This document shows, piece by piece, positions 3,361 through 16,194 of a DNA stretch of 36,629 nt; the first letter of the stretch is position 1, and each line of letters starts with the position of its first letter. Below the pieces are notes generated by a model. It saw only the letters and a list, made by a program, of their open reading frames with translations. It had not been told where the DNA came from and searched no databases. A program made the translations under genes and the position numbers. The DNA comes from a virus, in IMG/VR virus record IMGVR_UViG_3300032217_000592, positions 1 to 36,629 of that record; one strand, 5' to 3'.

Positions 3361-3954
3361 ATGTCTAGTATAACAAAAAAATGTGTTGTCGATGGTTGCA
3401 TAAAAACAAATAAGAATGATAAGAACTTCAACATGAAGCGTTCTCTTTGTAATGCTCATTGTTTAAGACTAAAAATATATGGTGATGCATCAATGCCATA
3501 CAGACGCAAAATACATGGCATGTCAAATAGCCTTACTTACAAAACATGGACAACCATCAAAAATCGTTGCTATAACGAGAACGAGCCGTCATATAAGTAC
3601 TACGGAGCGCGTGGCATAAAGATGTGTGATAGATGGCTTGGTGTTGATGGATTCAGTAACTTTCTAGCCGATATGGGCGAAAAGGGAAATGGTATGTCTA
3701 TTGACAGGATTGACAACAATGGTGATTACTCCCCAGAAAACTGTCGATGGGCTTCAGTAATTACTCAACAACGGAATAAGCGTACACCGATAACTAATAA
3801 GAGTTCATATAGGGGTGTTTTTCAAACAAAAAAGAGTGGCAATTTTTCCGTAACGATTGGAACTGGGTCAGGGCGGATGAGGATTGGAACCTTCAAGACG
3901 CTAGAGGAAGCCCTATCAGCAAGGTTCATGGCAGAGTCTATCTTTGACTACTAG
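3361..3954 (+). CDS. HNH homing-type endonuclease with N-terminal zinc knuckle and C-terminal AP2 domain
   Basis: 197 residues. The N terminus has CVVDGC and CNAHC, a likely zinc site. The HNH core follows: [25 protein letters not shown], then a Gly-Phe-xx-Phe element and the [20 protein letters not shown] block, which carries the catalytic D-R-x-D-N-N and N-C-R-W residues. Residues 145-197 form an AP2-like DNA-binding domain ([17 protein letters not shown]... [13 protein letters not shown]). This is the standard free-standing phage HNH-AP2 enzyme, which nicks or cuts DNA and spreads its own gene. It is flanked by a 5'-less coding remnant (3948-4088), which suggests it landed in or beside a gene. 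Its ribosome site is masked by a hairpin. Confidence 0.9.
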
Positions 3955-4671: not shown

Positions 4672-4833
4672 CTATTCGCAACCGTCACAAATAGTGAGTG
4701 TCGCTGGGTCTACAGGTACTGCATTAGGATTAAAGGTGGTTCGTTTAGCTTCAGCTTCGGACACAGCCTTGTCTATTGCTGCTAGTTTTTCTTCTAAGGT
4801 CATCGTGTCGTTAATAATGTTATTTGCATTCAT
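4672..4833 (-). CDS. Small hypothetical protein at the end of the early unit
   Basis: 53 residues. The ATG overlaps the stop of the upstream gene (ATGA). The sequence begins MNANNIINDTMTLEEKLAAI, continues with a charged helix (DKAVSEAEAKR) and ends in a Pro-rich tail with a C-x-x-C pair (TICDGCE). No family is recognised. The four-base overlap and a compact helical N terminus support real translation as the last gene of the initiator operon. Confidence 0.6.
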   Translation of the reverse strand: MNANNIINDTMTLEEKLAAIDKAVSEAEAKRTTFNPNAVPVDPATLTICDGCE

Positions 4834-5135
4834 GAATCCATTATATCGAGATGATTTTTACTCCGCAGTTGTGCTTTTAACTTTTGAATACGAGTAAGAT
4901 TGTGCTGTCGTTGTGCGTCTGTGAGGTCTTCAGATGGCGCAGAAAGTGCTAGTTCCTTAAAAGATGAGTATTGACCCGTCTGCCCAGTGTTTTCAACACT
5001 TAGGATAGCTGAAGCCTTAATTAGTGAGTCTTTGATGTCAATATACTCTACGCCCTGACGCAGGGCTTCTTTTATTTGCTCGCCTTGTTCTGTTGTGACA
5101 TATATTGTGGAGCCTGTTACTGTTTTGATTACCAT
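4830..5135 (-). CDS. Hypothetical protein co-expressed with the replication initiator
   Basis: 101 residues. The start overlaps the initiator stop by seven bases. The N-terminal 45 residues (MVIKTVTGSTIYVTTEQGEQ then IKEALRQGVEYIDI) look like a small beta/alpha fold, and the C-terminal part is a basic helix (DAQRQHNLTRIQKLKAQLRSKN). No known domain. Position directly after the initiator in the same transcript suggests a role in replication, for example helicase loading or regulation, but nothing in the sequence proves this. Confidence 0.65.
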   Translation of the reverse strand: MVIKTVTGSTIYVTTEQGEQIKEALRQGVEYIDIKDSLIKASAILSVENTGQTGQYSSFKELALSAPSEDLTDAQRQHNLTRIQKLKAQLRSKNHLDIMDS

Positions 5136-5983
5136 ATCTTTGCTACCTTTGGTCGCTGACCGTTATTACTTTGATTCCTTCCCCATACAAGTAACTGTGT
5201 TAGTTTTGTTTGCAAGTCGCAGAAGTCAGCAATTCTTGGTGCAAACCTATCTTGATGTGCGAGCGCAACCCCATCGATGAGGCGATGGGTCCCATCAATA
5301 CTGTGTTTTCTAATAAGGTTGTGTGCTGCAATACGGTTTTGCTTATGGCGTGAACTTATTGCTACACCAACAACCTTTTCCCAGTAAGCAAATACTTCAT
5401 TTATTTGAGTGTCTCCGAATTCTTTATTAGACGCAGTCAATAGTACTTTAGTACTATTCTTACTTTCACTTACTTTCTTCTTACTTTCCGACAGGGGTCG
5501 CACCTCTGGAGCCAAGTACTCCCGTGTAGTAGTTTTGCTACTACGCTGTAGTAGTTCAGGTACTACACTGTAGTAGTTGGAGGTGTCTAAGTACTCCGCT
5601 GTAGTAGTTGAAAAACCTCGTTTATAACGCTCGTTTGATACCCAAGTTCGCCTCACATTTCTAAATACTGGCTCGCTATGTTCAATCCATTTACCAAGCT
5701 TATACTTAGTAGTGAGATTATTATATGCCCGTTCAATTTGCTTTGGCGTTACACCAAATTGCTCGGCTAATGTTTCTTTAGACGCAACTGATATTCCTAA
5801 ATGGAGCTTCCCAAACTGCTCATAGAATCTAATCTGGTTATATAACCTAAATGTTAATGGCAACTGAAAGTTAAATTCTTTCATCGCATCTTTTAATAAT
5901 GGTTCTGTTTGCCTATTTATCTCATCCATTAGTGGATTGATAGTCTGGCGTTTTGTTGTATCGAACGATGTATCCTCGTTCAT
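5129..5983 (-). CDS. Replication initiator (phage O-protein-like plan) containing the origin
   Basis: 284 residues with AGGAAGGGG upstream of the ATG. Residues about 40-100 form a winged-helix-like domain with a clear helix-turn-helix (SKETLAEQFGVTPKQIERAYNNL). A low-complexity Ser/Thr/Tyr linker follows (about 125-190). A C-terminal domain (about 195-265) contains INEVFAYWEKVVG and an IADFCDLQTKLTQLLVWG segment, the Phe-x-Tyr-Trp type of motif seen at the ends of phage replisome-organiser proteins. The linker-coding DNA holds four palindromic iterons (5516-5607) and a repeat tract, as the ori does inside lambda gene O. It would bind the iterons and recruit the host helicase. The leader at 5984-6110 carries an attenuator. 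No polymerase or helicase gene accompanies it. Confidence 0.75.
   Translation of the reverse strand: MNEDTSFDTTKRQTINPLMDEINRQTEPLLKDAMKEFNFQLPLTFRLYNQIRFYEQFGKLHLGISVASKETLAEQFGVTPKQIERAYNNLTTKYKLGKWIEHSEPVFRNVRRTWVSNERYKRGFSTTTAEYLDTSNYYSVVPELLQRSSKTTTREYLAPEVRPLSESKKKVSESKNSTKVLLTASNKEFGDTQINEVFAYWEKVVGVAISSRHKQNRIAAHNLIRKHSIDGTHRLIDGVALAHQDRFAPRIADFCDLQTKLTQLLVWGRNQSNNGQRPKVAKIW
5439..5607. other. Probable replication origin inside the initiator gene
   Basis: Two adjacent parts: four iterons at 5516-5607, and at 5439-5488 a perfect inverted repeat AATAGTAC-TTTA-GTACTATT (5439-5458) followed by three CTTACTTTC direct repeats at 5459, 5469 and 5480. The direct repeats recur every 10-11 bases and the iterons every 22, 22 and 31 bases, so both sets face one side of the helix. 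Iterons beside an easily melted asymmetric tract, inside the initiator gene, is the organisation of lambdoid origins. Confidence 0.7.
5516..5607. repeat. Four palindromic iterons
   Basis: 17-base units at 5516-5532, 5538-5554, 5560-5576 and 5591-5607. Read on the minus strand they fit CTACTAC-N3-G(T/G)AGTA(C/G). The unit at 5538 is a perfect inverted repeat with a 3-base centre (CTACTAC / GTAGTAG). They code for the low-complexity linker of the initiator, so protein and DNA function are superimposed. Confidence 0.85.
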
Positions 5984-6004
5984 ATATACCCCTTCCTATT
6001 CTAA

Positions 6005-6080
6005 GAAAAAAGCCAGCCAGCAATTTAGAGTTGCGATAGACTGGCTAGCTTATTTCTTACCCTAAATTTTTATCTATCGC
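6005..6080 (-). promoter_or_regulatory. Attenuator-like leader: terminator with competing upstream pairings
   Basis: The terminator stem is AAGCTAGCCAG (6051-6041) with CTGGCTGGCTT (6020-6010), one mismatch, then a T6 run. Its loop contains TCTATCGC (6040-6033), fully complementary to GCGATAGA earlier in the leader (6080-6073), and CTAAATT (6028-6022), fully complementary to AATTTAG (6068-6062). Either pairing crosses the terminator stem, so they are antiterminators or pseudoknot partners. The initiator start is about 20 bases further on. Confidence 0.7.
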
Positions 6081-6086
6081 CACTAC

Positions 6087-6115
6087 ATCATACATCGTGC
6101 TTATGTGATTTGCAA
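6087..6115 (-). promoter_or_regulatory. Promoter 2 of the initiator gene
   Basis: TTGCAA (6115-6110), 17-base spacer, TATGAT (6092-6087). The spacer contains AATCACATAAGC, the same 12 bases found in the spacer of the promoter at 8121-8149. Confidence 0.6.
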
Positions 6116-7004: not shown

Positions 7005-7516
7005 ACTGAGCAGAAATGTCCTGTGTCACGAATGTCAACTTGTTTGAAGAATGTTTCTAATATGCCCTTTAGTTCTTCTAGGGTGTATTCATATAAATGG
7101 TATGGATTAGTCGTTGGTACAACCTTATTAGGGGTAGAACCAATGAACTTACCATCATCTTTCAATCTTGCTTTTACCTGTTCCAGTAGTGGCTCTAACT
7201 GCTTACGCTCGATGTGTTCAATAAATTCAGTGGATACAATCGTGTCATACTTGCCACCTGGAAGTTTGTCTGGATATACCCATTGTTTCATCGCAAGTTT
7301 GTCGTGTTTAAATGCTTCTTGGAACTTATCCACAGCTATAACAGAGGTAACATCTTCTTTATTGAGATACTGAGCGGTGAACATTAAGCCACCAGCACCA
7401 ATGTCTAACACATCGCCAGTCACATGTGGCAACAGATAATCCCAGTAAGCTTTATCATATGCTAATTGGTCTGGGTTCTCATCATGGGTAACCTGTGTGC
7501 TTCTTTCGTGTGCCAT
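6980..7516 (-). CDS. Class I SAM-dependent methyltransferase
   Basis: About 178 residues. ATG 7516 is preferred over 7519, because AAAGGAG then sits at a normal distance. Motif I is VLDIGAGGLMFT (about 37-48), the acidic end of beta 2 is VIAVDKF, motif IV region is YDTIVSTEFIEHI, and a C-terminal NPYHLYEYTLEEL segment follows. This resembles the Methyltransf_11/23 small-molecule and glycan methyltransferases more than DNA methylases, since no DPPY or NPPF motif is present. It sits between RusA and the glycosyltransferase in one overlapping operon and may methylate a sugar made by the neighbour. The substrate is unknown. Confidence 0.85.
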   Translation of the reverse strand: MAHERSTQVTHDENPDQLAYDKAYWDYLLPHVTGDVLDIGAGGLMFTAQYLNKEDVTSVIAVDKFQEAFKHDKLAMKQWVYPDKLPGGKYDTIVSTEFIEHIERKQLEPLLEQVKARLKDDGKFIGSTPNKVVPTTNPYHLYEYTLEELKGILETFFKQVDIRDTGHFCSVWIASQPR

Positions 7517-7866
7517 CATAACTCCTTTATTGCTAATTCTACTCGTGGGTTTTCTCTATCTAATTGTGCATCTGCGTAGCCAATAACCAAGTGTTGCCAG
7601 TCATCATCAGGCACGATGCCTTCATCTACGAGTAAATCGTTTATACTTTCAATCATATTTGAAATGTCCCTACGCCTCAGGTCTTGTACATAGAACATAT
7701 AAGTAATCTCAACCTTGTTCTCATATTTGGCTTGTTGAGAGGCTCTCAGTTGCGTTGTAGCATCTTTATGCCATGCAGAATACCTTTTGCTAGGAAACGA
7801 CCTCCCAGAGCGTGTATTGATGCGAGAGTTTTTTTTACTTGGCACTTGTCCCAATATAGTAATCAT
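7516..7866 (-). CDS. rusA: RusA-family Holliday junction resolvase
   Basis: 116 residues. The RusA signature is visible: an N-terminal beta strand and basic loop (VPSKKNSR), then RRRDISNMIESINDLLVDEGIVPDDDW (residues 64-90), giving the acidic metal-binding residues D67, D77 and D87-89. Dimers of this enzyme cut four-way DNA junctions during late replication and recombination, often before packaging. Its ATG overlaps the AP2 gene stop, and its stop overlaps the methyltransferase start. The length is normal for the family. Confidence 0.9.
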   Translation of the reverse strand: MITILGQVPSKKNSRINTRSGRSFPSKRYSAWHKDATTQLRASQQAKYENKVEITYMFYVQDLRRRDISNMIESINDLLVDEGIVPDDDWQHLVIGYADAQLDRENPRVELAIKEL

Positions 7867-8114
7867 CAGCTTATCCCTCTAAACTTCTCTCGTTGTTCCT
7901 TACGCTGCAATTCCCACCACTTCTTAGAATACTTCTCTATTACTGGAGCTGGTGGGTTCTTTGCGTATTCTTCGAGGAAAGAAAAAAGAGCTTGCTTTGC
8001 TTCGTCAAACTCTTTATATTTTCCCAGATTGTAGGTTACATTCTGTCTATTTATCCGCACATCAAACTTACCAGACTGTTTATTGAGAAAGATGCCCTTA
8101 ACCCCGTTTATCAT
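7866..8114 (-). CDS. Stand-alone AP2-like DNA-binding protein
   Basis: 82 residues. Residues 3-50 follow the AP2/ERF pattern: a Gly-Val strand (GVKGIFLNKQSGKFDVRI), a short turn, YNLGKYKEFDEAKQALFSF as strand plus helix. A basic helical tail (WWELQRKEQREKFRG) follows. AP2 domains in phages normally form the C terminus of HNH nucleases such as the one at 3361; here no nuclease part exists. It could be a transcription regulator or a decayed homing gene. It is first in the RusA-methyltransferase-glycosyltransferase operon. It has no Shine-Dalgarno, and the -10 hexamer ends exactly six bases before the ATG, so it should be translated from a leaderless mRNA. Confidence 0.75.
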   Translation of the reverse strand: MINGVKGIFLNKQSGKFDVRINRQNVTYNLGKYKEFDEAKQALFSFLEEYAKNPPAPVIEKYSKKWWELQRKEQREKFRGIS

Positions 8115-10965: not shown

Positions 10966-11430
10966 TTAAAATGGAATTGATGAGAGGTCAATCTTTTCCC
11001 CAAGTTCGATGTCATCATCATCGGGTAGATTATCTTCAACTTTGTCTTGCAACAATTCTTTTTGCTGCCTGAACTTTTCATAGCCATCACCAGCAGGCTG
11101 TGACTCACGAACTGCATTAAAGAAATAGCGAATGTCCATGCCAGACTTACCGTTGCTCTTAACTTCAAATGTTCGCCCGTTGATGTTTGCCTCGCCTTTG
11201 CTGTATACAGCTTCTAGTAATGCACTGAGTTGTCCTGAGCCAATATCTAGTACACCTTTATCTGTTTCGAGCGCATAGACTTTGCGATAGCCCTGTTCGT
11301 ATTTTTCTGATACTAGCATACGCTTTGCATTGTTGTCCCACATTTTCCACTGATAGCCAAAAGCTTTTAATACTTTGAATTCTTTTCCTACTAAGTCAGC
11401 TAATTTGGTGTAAGTTCTTTTTTCTTGCAT
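10966..11430 (-). CDS. SSB-like single-strand DNA-binding protein
   Basis: 154 residues. The first 115 residues are beta-rich with aromatic and basic residues (FKVLKAFGYQWKMWDNNAKR, GRTFEVKSNGKSGMDIRYFF). The end is an acidic linker and tip (NLPDDDDIELGEKIDLSSIPF), ending in the D-x-x-I-P-F type C-terminal peptide by which SSBs recruit partner proteins. A classical OB-fold cannot be proven by eye, but length, tail and neighbour (a Cas4-like nuclease, one base away) fit a phage ssDNA-binding or recombination mediator protein. Confidence 0.65.
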   Translation of the reverse strand: MQEKRTYTKLADLVGKEFKVLKAFGYQWKMWDNNAKRMLVSEKYEQGYRKVYALETDKGVLDIGSGQLSALLEAVYSKGEANINGRTFEVKSNGKSGMDIRYFFNAVRESQPAGDGYEKFRQQKELLQDKVEDNLPDDDDIELGEKIDLSSIPF

Positions 11431-11431
11431 T

Positions 11432-12196
11432 TTATTTCTCCTTTAATAGTTCAAGTGAGCAGCACTCACCTGTTTCTTGATTCTTATAATCACAGTATTT
11501 TGTAACACTTTCATATAGATTGTGTTCTGGTGAGCAAATGCACACAGGTGGCTTCTTTGCTTTCCATGCCTTATTCAATGTATCAAGTCTTGCTTTTACA
11601 TTGTCTAACAATTCTTTTTGCACTTCAGTGCTGTACACGACGATACGCCCAGACAAGCTGATATATACATAGTCTATATTCTTTACATCTATGCCTTCCT
11701 CACCCAGCAGCAACACATAGGCATGGTTCTGGAGTTCGTGGTGAAGGTACGGAGTTTCTTTAATACCCCAAGTGTTCACTTCTCGCCCAGCCCGTTGCAT
11801 TGTGCCAGTCTTTTCTTTTAGGTAGGTCTTGCCATCTCGTTCAACGAACGCCATGTCGTGAACTGACTTGACTTCCACCAACCGACTATCCGATAGCACA
11901 AGGTTATCGAATTCGCCAGTGAGGTCTAGCGTCTTGCTTGTGAGTCGCTGATTGCTCTCAGTTTTTCCATAGACTGTTTCAATTTGAGGTCGTATCATTT
12001 CTTCAAGCAAGTGTCCTGCTCCCCAGCGAATAACCAGTGCTGCCGATGGGTCATTTAATGGCTTGACACCAAGTCGCTTGTAATAATGCGCTCGTGGGCA
12101 ATCTGAAATAGAACTTGCATGCCATGATTCAAACACTCGTCGCTCGTTGCTGTCTTTAATAGCCTGATAGAGTGCAACAGATTTATCGTTGTTCAT
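11432..12196 (-). CDS. Cas4/RecB-like PD-(D/E)XK nuclease with Cys cluster
   Basis: 254 residues from ATG 12196, which overlaps the upstream stop (ATGA); a TTG at 12202 is less likely. SSISDCPRAHYY (28-39) gives C33. GHLLEE (61-66), GEFDNL (94-99, D97), LVEVKS (106-111, E108 and K110) and HHELQNHAY (152-160) are the nuclease motifs. Cysteines at 219, 221, 235, 245 and 246 cluster at the end. One early Cys plus three or more late Cys is the iron-sulphur arrangement of Cas4 and AddB nucleases. No Cas genes are present, so a 5'-3' exonuclease for recombination with the SSB-like neighbour is the likely role. Confidence 0.85.
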   Translation of the reverse strand: MNNDKSVALYQAIKDSNERRVFESWHASSISDCPRAHYYKRLGVKPLNDPSAALVIRWGAGHLLEEMIRPQIETVYGKTESNQRLTSKTLDLTGEFDNLVLSDSRLVEVKSVHDMAFVERDGKTYLKEKTGTMQRAGREVNTWGIKETPYLHHELQNHAYVLLLGEEGIDVKNIDYVYISLSGRIVVYSTEVQKELLDNVKARLDTLNKAWKAKKPPVCICSPEHNLYESVTKYCDYKNQETGECCSLELLKEK

Positions 12197-12318
12197 GCCC
12201 AAACTACTTTGTAAGGTATGCCGTTATACCATTCGATTTCTATCTTGAGTTTCTTGTATGCGAGCTGTTGCAATTCATATGCAGTCAACTCCTCAAGTCG
12301 CTTGATTTTCACCTTCAT
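12193..12318 (-). CDS. 41-residue protein heading the nuclease-SSB operon
   Basis: MKVKIKRLEELTAYELQQLA then YKKLKIEIEWYNGIPYKVVWA. The start at 12318 is chosen because AAAGG precedes it and because an upstream in-frame ATG (12384) lies within the promoter. A helix is followed by two strands. The stop overlaps the nuclease ATG. No family is recognised. Confidence 0.6.
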   Translation of the reverse strand: MKVKIKRLEELTAYELQQLAYKKLKIEIEWYNGIPYKVVWA

Positions 12319-12384: not shown

Positions 12385-13000
12385 TAGGTATTATGCTTTT
12401 TTTATATCCCGATGCGGCTTTTGCAAAAATGCTGACCCACACGATTCTAAAGACCCCCCTCGACTATTTTTTGCTGCTTACTGACTCGCTCGCAGGAAAT
12501 TTCCAAAAATTGCCGATTTATTTTTCCAAAAGTCAAGTCCAAATATCTCTGACCCCTGTTAGCCCTCAATAGGTGCGCAAGTACCTCTGTTATGCAACAG
12601 ATAACAATAATAAGCAATAGGCAAGTGTGTCCATGCATGCAATATGTAAGCAATAGCAATATATTGCCATGTTATAACCGTTGCTATTGACTGTATATAA
12701 GCCTTTGTGTGCTAGTTTTTGCGCTTGTTGATGTAATTATCCTATTTATGCAAGCGTTGCATTGTATAGCCCGTTATATAGCCGTGTAGCGTGGTTATAT
12801 AGTGAATTGTGTCGTGTTGTTGTATCTATAGTGTTGTGTGTGGCGTTGTATAAGCTTGTGTGTTGCGTTGTAGTGCTAGAGTAGTGTTTTATCTCGTAGC
12901 TATTCTAAACGCTTGTCACAGGCGATTATATGCCGTTGTATATTGTCCCCCGTTTAATGTTTTAATGTAATACTTGCCGATAATATGCTTATAAGCAAGT
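12385..13000. other. Large non-coding, repeat-rich region
   Basis: No credible gene: frames here lack ribosome sites and have unnatural composition. 12420-12560 has T-runs and CCC clusters. CAATAGCAA (12651-12659) and TTGCTATTG (12681-12689) form a perfect inverted repeat, and TAAGCAATAG occurs at 12611 and 12647. From about 12700 to 12945 the plus strand is almost only G and T, with GCGTTGTA-like units at 12754, 12843, 12865 and 12933 and TTATATAGC units at about 12775 and 12795. A second origin, a strand-transfer site or a regulatory scaffold is possible. Confidence 0.6.
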
Positions 13001-13026
13001 AAAACAGCCCCATATAGGGGCGTTTT
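13001..13026 (-). terminator. Intrinsic terminator of the upper early operon
   Basis: Minus strand AAAACGCCCC, loop, GGGGCTGTTTT, with one mismatch inside the stem and A/T runs on both sides, so it may work in both directions. It directly follows the stop at 13028. Confidence 0.75.
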
Positions 13027-13329: not shown

Positions 13330-13557
13330 TTAATCTTCTTCTCTACTCTTTAATTCTTTTTTAAGCTGTTCAGCACTGTATAAAGCAAGTGAAGTTGTAG
13401 AGCGTGAGTTACCACTATTTTCCAGCCTGTCGTCAAAAATGTCAGCATATCGAGCTATTATTGTTCCTGTTGAAGTTTTTACTCTTGCACTTTCTAAATC
13501 ATCAACAATCTCGTTATACATTTTCCATAAATATTTGAATGTACTCGGTTTAGACAT
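13330..13557 (-). CDS. Hypothetical helical protein
   Basis: 75 residues, MSKPSTFKYLWKMYNEIVDD followed by ARVKTSTGTIIARYADIFDD and a Ser-rich stretch ending in a charged helix (SAEQLKKELKSREED). It overlaps the HNH stop by eight bases. Function unknown. Confidence 0.6.
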   Translation of the reverse strand: MSKPSTFKYLWKMYNEIVDDLESARVKTSTGTIIARYADIFDDRLENSGNSRSTTSLALYSAEQLKKELKSREED

Positions 13558-13948
13558 ATTGTTTCCTTTCTTTTACCTTTGCTCTGTAAACCCGTTGCCA
13601 TGTTGCATGACACGCTTTACATATTCGCCAACCGTTATTTCTTACGTGGATATTATCACTTGTAAGCTCGTGACCTTTGTTGCAATGCGTCTTTCGTGCA
13701 TTCTTGGCAGATGGTGCTTCGCCTCGCATAATGTTTGTTACGTTGTCTACTGGCTCAATATGGTCTGGGTTGATACAATTCCTTACTCTACATAAGTGGT
13801 CGCTATATAGCCCGTCTATATTTTTACCTGTGTAGCTTTCGTACATTACACGGTGCGCTCTGTACTGTTTGCGATTCGCAAGGATAATGCCATACCCATC
13901 GGTATTGATACTTCCTGCAAATAACATACATTCGTCTGTGTTTATCAT
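13550..13948 (-). CDS. HNH endonuclease (HNH_3 type with zinc ribbon)
   Basis: 132 residues. YRAHRVMYE (His-Arg of the HNH strand), then YSDHLCRVRNCINPDHIEPV with the D-H and N-P-x-H metal-binding residues and two Cys. A second half, THCNKGHELTSDN...RICKACHATW, has C-x4-H and C-x2-C and looks like a structural zinc finger. The whole chain is the short two-part form common in actinobacterial phages. It has no ribosome site: TGATATAAT ends six bases before the ATG, so the mRNA should start at the ATG. It sits between small early genes and may be a mobile gene. Confidence 0.9.
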   Translation of the reverse strand: MINTDECMLFAGSINTDGYGIILANRKQYRAHRVMYESYTGKNIDGLYSDHLCRVRNCINPDHIEPVDNVTNIMRGEAPSAKNARKTHCNKGHELTSDNIHVRNNGWRICKACHATWQRVYRAKVKERKQYV

Positions 13949-15472: not shown

Positions 15473-15573
15473 GACACCACCCCTGTTGCTATGGTAGGGG
15501 AGGGCGGTATGCCCCAGCTGTGGCGAGGGTGCTGTAACTTTTTGGCTGAAATAATTACTACTTCCGTTTGCAA

Positions 15574-15735
15574 CTACTTCCTTTTGGATAACCTTTTCTT
15601 TTCTAATCCCTTTTGTATCTGTATATCTCTCTTTGACAAAGTATAGTCTTTATTGTCTACTGTGGTGGAGGGGGTTACTTGTAACAAGGGAGCTTGCTGC
15701 TGAGTAGTAGTCTTCTTATTTTTTTTATGTTCCAT
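15574..15735 (-). CDS. Small lysine-rich protein antisense in the terS-terL gap
   Basis: 53 residues with AAGGAAG before the ATG: MEHKKNKKTTTQQQAPLLQV, a Thr/Asp middle, then a very basic tail (IQKGLEKKRLSKRK). It stands alone on the minus strand inside the late unit. A hairpin (15785-15759) lies directly upstream of its ribosome site. Its charge suggests nucleic-acid binding. No family is recognised, and it could be a moron-like insertion. Confidence 0.5.
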   Translation of the reverse strand: MEHKKNKKTTTQQQAPLLQVTPSTTVDNKDYTLSKRDIQIQKGLEKKRLSKRK

Positions 15736-16180
15736 AACTTCCTTATCTTCTTAGTTGTTGGCGGTGAGTGGCTGTACCTCAGCCGCCCTTCCTCTTTGTA
15801 ATACCTTTGGAAAAGGATGGCGTTTGGGTACAACTCCCCCTACTATCCCCCATAGAAATCCATGTCAGCTAGCTACTAACCTAGCAGGGGCGTAGGGATA
15901 ATTGATACCTTCGGAGCCAAGTTTGACGCCTGGGCAACAATGTAGGTTCCCTAGTTCCTACAACAGAAACTCCAGTTACTATCTGATTCACTACGCAAGC
16001 CCAGTGTCCAGAGTCGTTAATGGTAACTGTTTGAGGATTTGCACCTCTCGAAGCTTCTGCCTCCATAAACCCCGTCCCCTAATAAGAACGGATGTTACTC
16101 TCATTATGAACAAATAAAAATATATTGAATAGTCTTGATATTTATAATCTTCATTGTCTAACTAACTAAACAATCCTCAT

Positions 16181-16188
16181 GCTATAAT
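16181..16188 (+). promoter_or_regulatory. Leaderless promoter of terL
   Basis: Extended -10 TGCTATAAT ending at 16188, exactly six bases before ATG 16195, with no Shine-Dalgarno. Confidence 0.65.
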
Positions 16189-16194
16189 TCAAAC

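Follow-up and report, generated by a model that had tools for sequence, protein, structure and literature searches.

Does the probable replication initiator gene of an uncultured phage also contain the origin from which the phage replicates, as gene O of phage lambda does? The sequence-only reading of this DNA proposed a lambda-type origin inside the gene. Here we examine that proposal in the window, i.e. the whole stretch of 36,629 nucleotides that was analysed, and the features discussed are collected in Table 1. We think it quite likely that the locus is a theta origin of the iteron type that lies within the gene of its own initiator and works like the lambda ori. The arrangement is thus most likely a known one, here with an initiator of no recognised family.

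Table 1. Features of the window and of the candidate origin.
Feature	Positions	Strand	Remarks
Window, IMG/VR record IMGVR_UViG_3300032217_000592	1-36,629		Uncultured virus, whole stretch
101-aa ORF	4830..5135	-	Start on initiator stop codon (ATGGTAA overlap)
Probable replication initiator gene, 284 aa	5129..5983	-	ORF; weak HTH_36 and 'replication initiation' matches
Perfect inverted repeat AATAGTACT-TT-AGTACTATT	5439..5458		Adjoins purine tract
Purine-rich, A+T-rich tract, three GAAAGTAAG units	5459..5490	-	Candidate unwinding element
Iteron 4, AACTACTACACGGGAGTAC	5516..5534	-	Gene frame 2, encodes TTTREY
Iteron 3, AACTACTACAGCGTAGTAG	5538..5556	-	Gene frame 1, encodes LLQRSS; perfect 7+3+7 palindrome inside
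Iteron 2, AACTACTACAGTGTAGTAC	5560..5578	-	Gene frame 0, encodes NYYSVV
Iteron 1, AACTACTACAGCGGAGTAC	5591..5609	-	Gene frame 2, encodes TTTAEY
Initiator mRNA leader	6080-5984	-	Starts near weak promoter match
Leader hairpin, terminator-like	6002..6059	-	Stem, then TTTTTT
Candidate initiator promoter TTGCAA-17-TATGAT	6087..6115	-	9/12 match, chance level by itself
RusA gene	7516-7866		
Cas4-like nuclease gene	11432-12202		

The gene and its genome

The window carries a 93 bp terminal repeat and is therefore probably a complete phage genome in circular form. The terminase, portal and capsid genes run rightward from 15 kb, with about 700 bp that hold no convincing ORF between the small and large terminase genes (15473-16190). 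The early genes form a leftward block from 14.5 to 4.8 kb, in which the initiator gene is second from the end; the 101-aa ORF that follows it is probably translationally coupled to the initiator. The early ORFs scanned encode RusA, a Cas4-like nuclease, HNH nucleases and products of no recognised function, and none of the ORFs scanned is recognisable as a helicase, loader, primase or polymerase. These missing replisome matches are weakly consistent with a phage that passes its origin to the replisome of the host.

The 284-aa protein is a probable replication initiator, judging from its context and from sub-threshold helix-turn-helix (HTH) matches. An HTH_36 or winged-helix domain at its N-terminus is plausible: the match to HTH_36 reaches 17-19 bits, below the curated cut-off of 25, with E=4e-5 at single-genome scale. 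The same module matches a PHROG 'replication initiation protein' (E=0.016) and, again below threshold, a GntR-type HTH. A predicted pair of helices at residues 69-76 and 80-93 fits an HTH in a structure model of low confidence (the pLDDT values of the predictions are 36 and 49). The C-terminal domain has no family match in the profile and PHROG comparisons, and the DnaT profile (PF17948) does not match the protein. The resulting layout is an HTH module (residues ~1-122), a linker encoded by the repeats (~125-157), a basic, serine-containing linker and a C-terminal domain (~190-284).

Repeats that cross reading frames

On the coding (minus) strand the gene contains four copies of a near-palindromic 19-mer, AACTACTACAGYGKAGTAC, which they match at 19, 19, 18 and 17 of 19 positions. 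Outside the array the best match in the window is 15/19. The start positions of the units and their spacings of 22, 22 and 31 bases had been given exactly in the sequence-only reading. At 10.5 bp per turn the spacings correspond to ~2.1, 2.1 and 2.95 turns, so that the proposed near-whole-turn phasing holds as well. The units had also been described as being of the type CTACTAC-N3-GTAGTAG. This palindrome is perfect in the unit at 5538 but imperfect in the other three, where the best dyads are 18/23 (unit at 5560) and 14/21 (units at 5516 and 5591); the minus-strand 19-mer describes the array best.

Because the spacings (31, 22 and 22 in the coding direction) are not multiples of three, the units occupy all three reading frames, and the same DNA word is translated into three different peptides. 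A repeat in the protein can therefore not explain the array, while selection on the DNA can. Further, when the codons of the gene were shuffled synonymously, none of 1500 shuffles equalled the observed cluster. Among the other 32 window genes tested, none has more than one out-of-frame repeat pair. In the whole window, 9-mers that occur at least three times within 120 bp are found only in the iterons, in the repeats of the purine tract and in one Gly-rich coding repeat, whose spacings of 39 and 15 are multiples of three. The iterons are thus multiple candidate initiator sites inside the initiator frame and are constrained at the DNA level, as in a nested origin.

The neighbouring A+T-rich tract

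In the coding direction the iterons are followed by a GC-richer spacer of ~25 bp, then by GGAAAGTAAGAAGAAAGTAAGTGAAAGTAAG and then by AATAGTACTAAAGTACTATT. An A+T-rich region thus lies beside the iterons, which is the other element of a nested origin. The three repeats every 10-11 bases that had been pointed out here are present, with CTTACTTTC at 5459, 5469 and 5480. No other 40 bp of the gene are as biased towards purines as this tract (80% purine), and its A+T content is 72-75%. It had been called suited to melting, and its composition and low stability agree with this, but it is the second and not the first least stable region of the gene. Melting at the tract is for this reason plausible rather than proven. 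The perfect inverted repeat next to it had been given as 8 bases; it is indeed perfect, but its arms are 9 bases long, with a spacer of 2 bases.

The cumulative GC skew, which had been suggested as a check for an origin near 5.5 kb, does not support one: it is highest near 5 kb, where genes transcribed in opposite directions meet. At fourfold sites the skew of the 15-24 kb sector differs from that of the 24-36 kb sector as expected, but the 0.3-4.7 kb sector does not behave as expected, and the pattern by sector is not what one bidirectional origin at 5.5 kb would give. Since it is confounded by transcription, we regard GC skew as uninformative here.

Comparison with lambda and other nested origins

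In the lambda ori, dimers of the O protein bind to the iterons and a 40-bp A+T-rich region opens upon binding, with all of these elements inside gene O (PMC5043065, PMC7466680). The analogy with lambda that had been proposed holds when the two genes are run side by side. In the same shuffle test lambda O, serving as a positive control, returns exactly its four annotated iterons, out of frame and near-palindromic. In both genes the iterons lie at about 40-50% of the gene, and the most purine-rich 40 bp (80%) follow directly after. Both have iterons of 18-19 bp (spaced 20, 24 and 23 bases in lambda against 31, 22 and 22 here) that encode a linker joining the N- and C-terminal parts, and both genes overlap the next gene. 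The differences are that the iteron sequence is another one, that a perfect inverted repeat abuts the purine tract of the window, that no lambda P is recognisable in the window, and that the initiator gene has its own candidate promoter and leader hairpin, whereas lambda uses the distal pR.

It had also been stated that the protein is not obviously related to that of lambda, and indeed neither half aligns with lambda O (best BLASTP E 2.1; no match to phrog_678). One weak collinear BLASTP match (AHQDRF.../ACQDNFW..., E 2.1) had raised the C-terminal domain as a candidate relative of lambda O, and it failed both HMM and shuffle tests. The domain scores -0.1 bits against an O/DnaD-type HMM. In the comparison with 15 O/DnaD-type domains its z score relative to shuffles of itself is 0.84, against 30-42 for true members that were held out. 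We therefore do not place the protein in the lambda O family.

The oriL of phage SPP1 lies in gene 38, the gene of the replisome organizer G38P; there too, origin repeats and an A+T-rich region are contained in the gene of the initiator (PMC6316719). In this published layout SPP1 oriL resembles the window. SPP1 differs, however, in having a second origin as well as a helicase and a loader of its own, of which no counterpart was found here.

When the shuffle test was applied to 16 other phage initiator genes, lambda, Edwardsiella phage GF-2 and Lactobacillus phage BH1 gave 0/300, Streptomyces phage PapayaSalad 3/300 and Polaribacter phage Danklef_1 17/300, and the remaining genes did not clearly exceed chance. 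As only a few of the genes stand out, repeats inside the initiator gene are recurrent but not universal. In GF-2, Danklef_1 and BH1 the repeats fall within the stretch of the initiator gene that encodes the linker, as in the window; their C-terminal domains are of the O/DnaD type, whereas that of the window is not.

Relatives of the initiator

Among 2.9 million viral contigs the initiator has, at the sensitivity used, a single relative, L001 (IMG/VR 3300035670_000659), and no further relative was found in the viral contigs, genome contigs, phages and plasmids searched. The HTH protein of L001 is 63% identical to residues 1-122 of the initiator and ends at residue 124; L001 lacks the linker, the C-terminal domain and any iteron array. 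This sets the edge of the N-terminal module. Since the similarity ends at residue 122 and the linker begins at about residue 125, the iterons start exactly at that edge, in agreement with the earlier claim that they encode a linker behind the HTH domain. Searches anchored on the 101-aa gene and on the Cas4-like gene returned no relatives, and the terminase relatives (L003-L007) yielded no homologous initiator.

Alternative explanations

The HTH protein could instead use the repeats as operators or silencers to control its own gene or the tail of the operon; the origin would then lie elsewhere, for example in the non-coding region at 12.4-13.0 kb. The resemblance of the HTH to the GntR and HTH_36 types agrees with this, as does L001, a stand-alone, regulator-like HTH protein that lacks a C-terminal domain and whose gene has both GTAGTAG and CTACTAC a short way upstream. 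However, the protein of the window does have an additional C-terminal domain, and its promoter carries no copies of the iteron. Further, four phased sites in the middle of a gene, ~370 bp past the start codon and followed by an A+T tract, would be odd for an operator and are usual for phage origins. We therefore consider control of transcription unlikely to be the function of the array.

Clustered palindromic repeats are also found in parS or centromere sites and in recombination sites, and the array might accordingly serve partition, packaging or site-specific recombination. The ORFs scanned include none recognisable as ParA/ParB or integrase-like, and the placement in an HTH gene beside an A+T tract suits an origin better, which makes such a role very unlikely.

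An action of the repeats as RNA, as hairpins in the initiator mRNA that affect stability or cause translation pausing, would agree with the fact that dinucleotide shuffles of the region fold less well (z -2.8, 0/200). Yet near-palindromic DNA always folds, and the predicted fold pairs the iterons with each other and does not give four hairpins. Hairpins in RNA need neither the identity of direct repeats nor helical phasing, and the iterons of lambda are palindromic too. We judge an RNA function to be highly improbable.

Finally, CTA/TAC microsatellites are common, and a scan of the viral contigs for the iteron pattern returned 108 stretches, but those that were fetched are microsatellites only, with no clustered palindromic units or out-of-frame spacing; together with the synonymous shuffles this leaves a negligible probability for chance or a low-complexity trinucleotide repeat.

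How the origin may work

If the locus is an origin, the N-terminal HTH module would bind the four near-palindromic iterons, probably with one dimer per iteron. Given the near-whole-turn phasing, the complexes would stack on one face of the helix and bend the DNA. The strain in supercoiled DNA would then open the purine-rich, A+T-rich tract next to the iterons. Recruitment of the helicase and replisome would fall to the C-terminal domain, perhaps aided by the coupled 101-aa product; we propose that these are the host's because none of the ORFs scanned was recognised as a phage helicase, primase or polymerase.

The locus provides a concrete candidate origin for an uncultured phage lineage that has no annotated replication protein. 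It also means that the lambda arrangement is met again around an initiator for which no alignment with lambda O can be made. Repeats in an HTH gene that run across its reading frames would then offer a usable, homology-independent signature for spotting initiators, and with them origins, among viral dark matter. A rather unlikely scenario for how such an origin arose is that a stand-alone HTH protein, like that of L001, acquired by fusion a linker encoded by iterons and a new domain that recruits the helicase. This would have given a lambda-like nested origin with an initiator that has no detectable kin and whose level is set by a new type of leader, in which the loop of a hairpin pairs with the 5' end of the transcript.

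The leader and other features of the early region

In the leader of the initiator mRNA the loop of the hairpin is perfectly complementary to 6080-6073 (8 bp) and to 6068-6062 (7 bp); the pairing words are GCGATAGA/TCTATCGC. The leader of L001 (5891-6000, plus strand) also has a hairpin before the ribosome-binding site, with a loop complementary (8 bp) to upstream RNA, and the two hairpins are unrelated in sequence. In both phages the 8-bp partner of the loop lies close to where the transcript presumably starts. With loop and upstream region shuffled separately, the chance of such complementarity is 0.010 and 0.005, for a feature noticed post hoc in two sequences. No Rfam family matches the leader. 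In the window it may be an attenuator or a pseudoknot that sets the level of the initiator. In L001 the complementary words (GTAGTAGC/GCTACTAC) resemble the half-site of the window iteron, and DNA binding by the HTH protein is therefore an alternative reading there.

Upstream, at ~6190-6122 on the minus strand, an extended -10 (TGCTATAAT) precedes a hairpin (about 6155-6125) whose last bases are TTTTTT. The two may mark a small RNA, or else terminators stacked where the early operon gives way to the initiator gene.

HNH endonuclease-type genes, one of them perhaps a fragment, lie at 3361-3954, 7866-8114 and 13550-13948; in the second, the family match is confined to the outside of the catalytic core. 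A 154-aa protein (10966-11430, minus strand) has no family matches, and its acidic tail ending in IPF (DDDDIELGEKIDLSSIPF) resembles the protein-binding tail of SSB, which makes it a candidate phage SSB. Finally, the ~630 bp at 12390-13020, in which there are no clear genes, contain a long imperfect dyad (12642-12698), a direct repeat (12611/12647) and a TG-rich stretch, and are possibly a regulatory region or an alternative origin.
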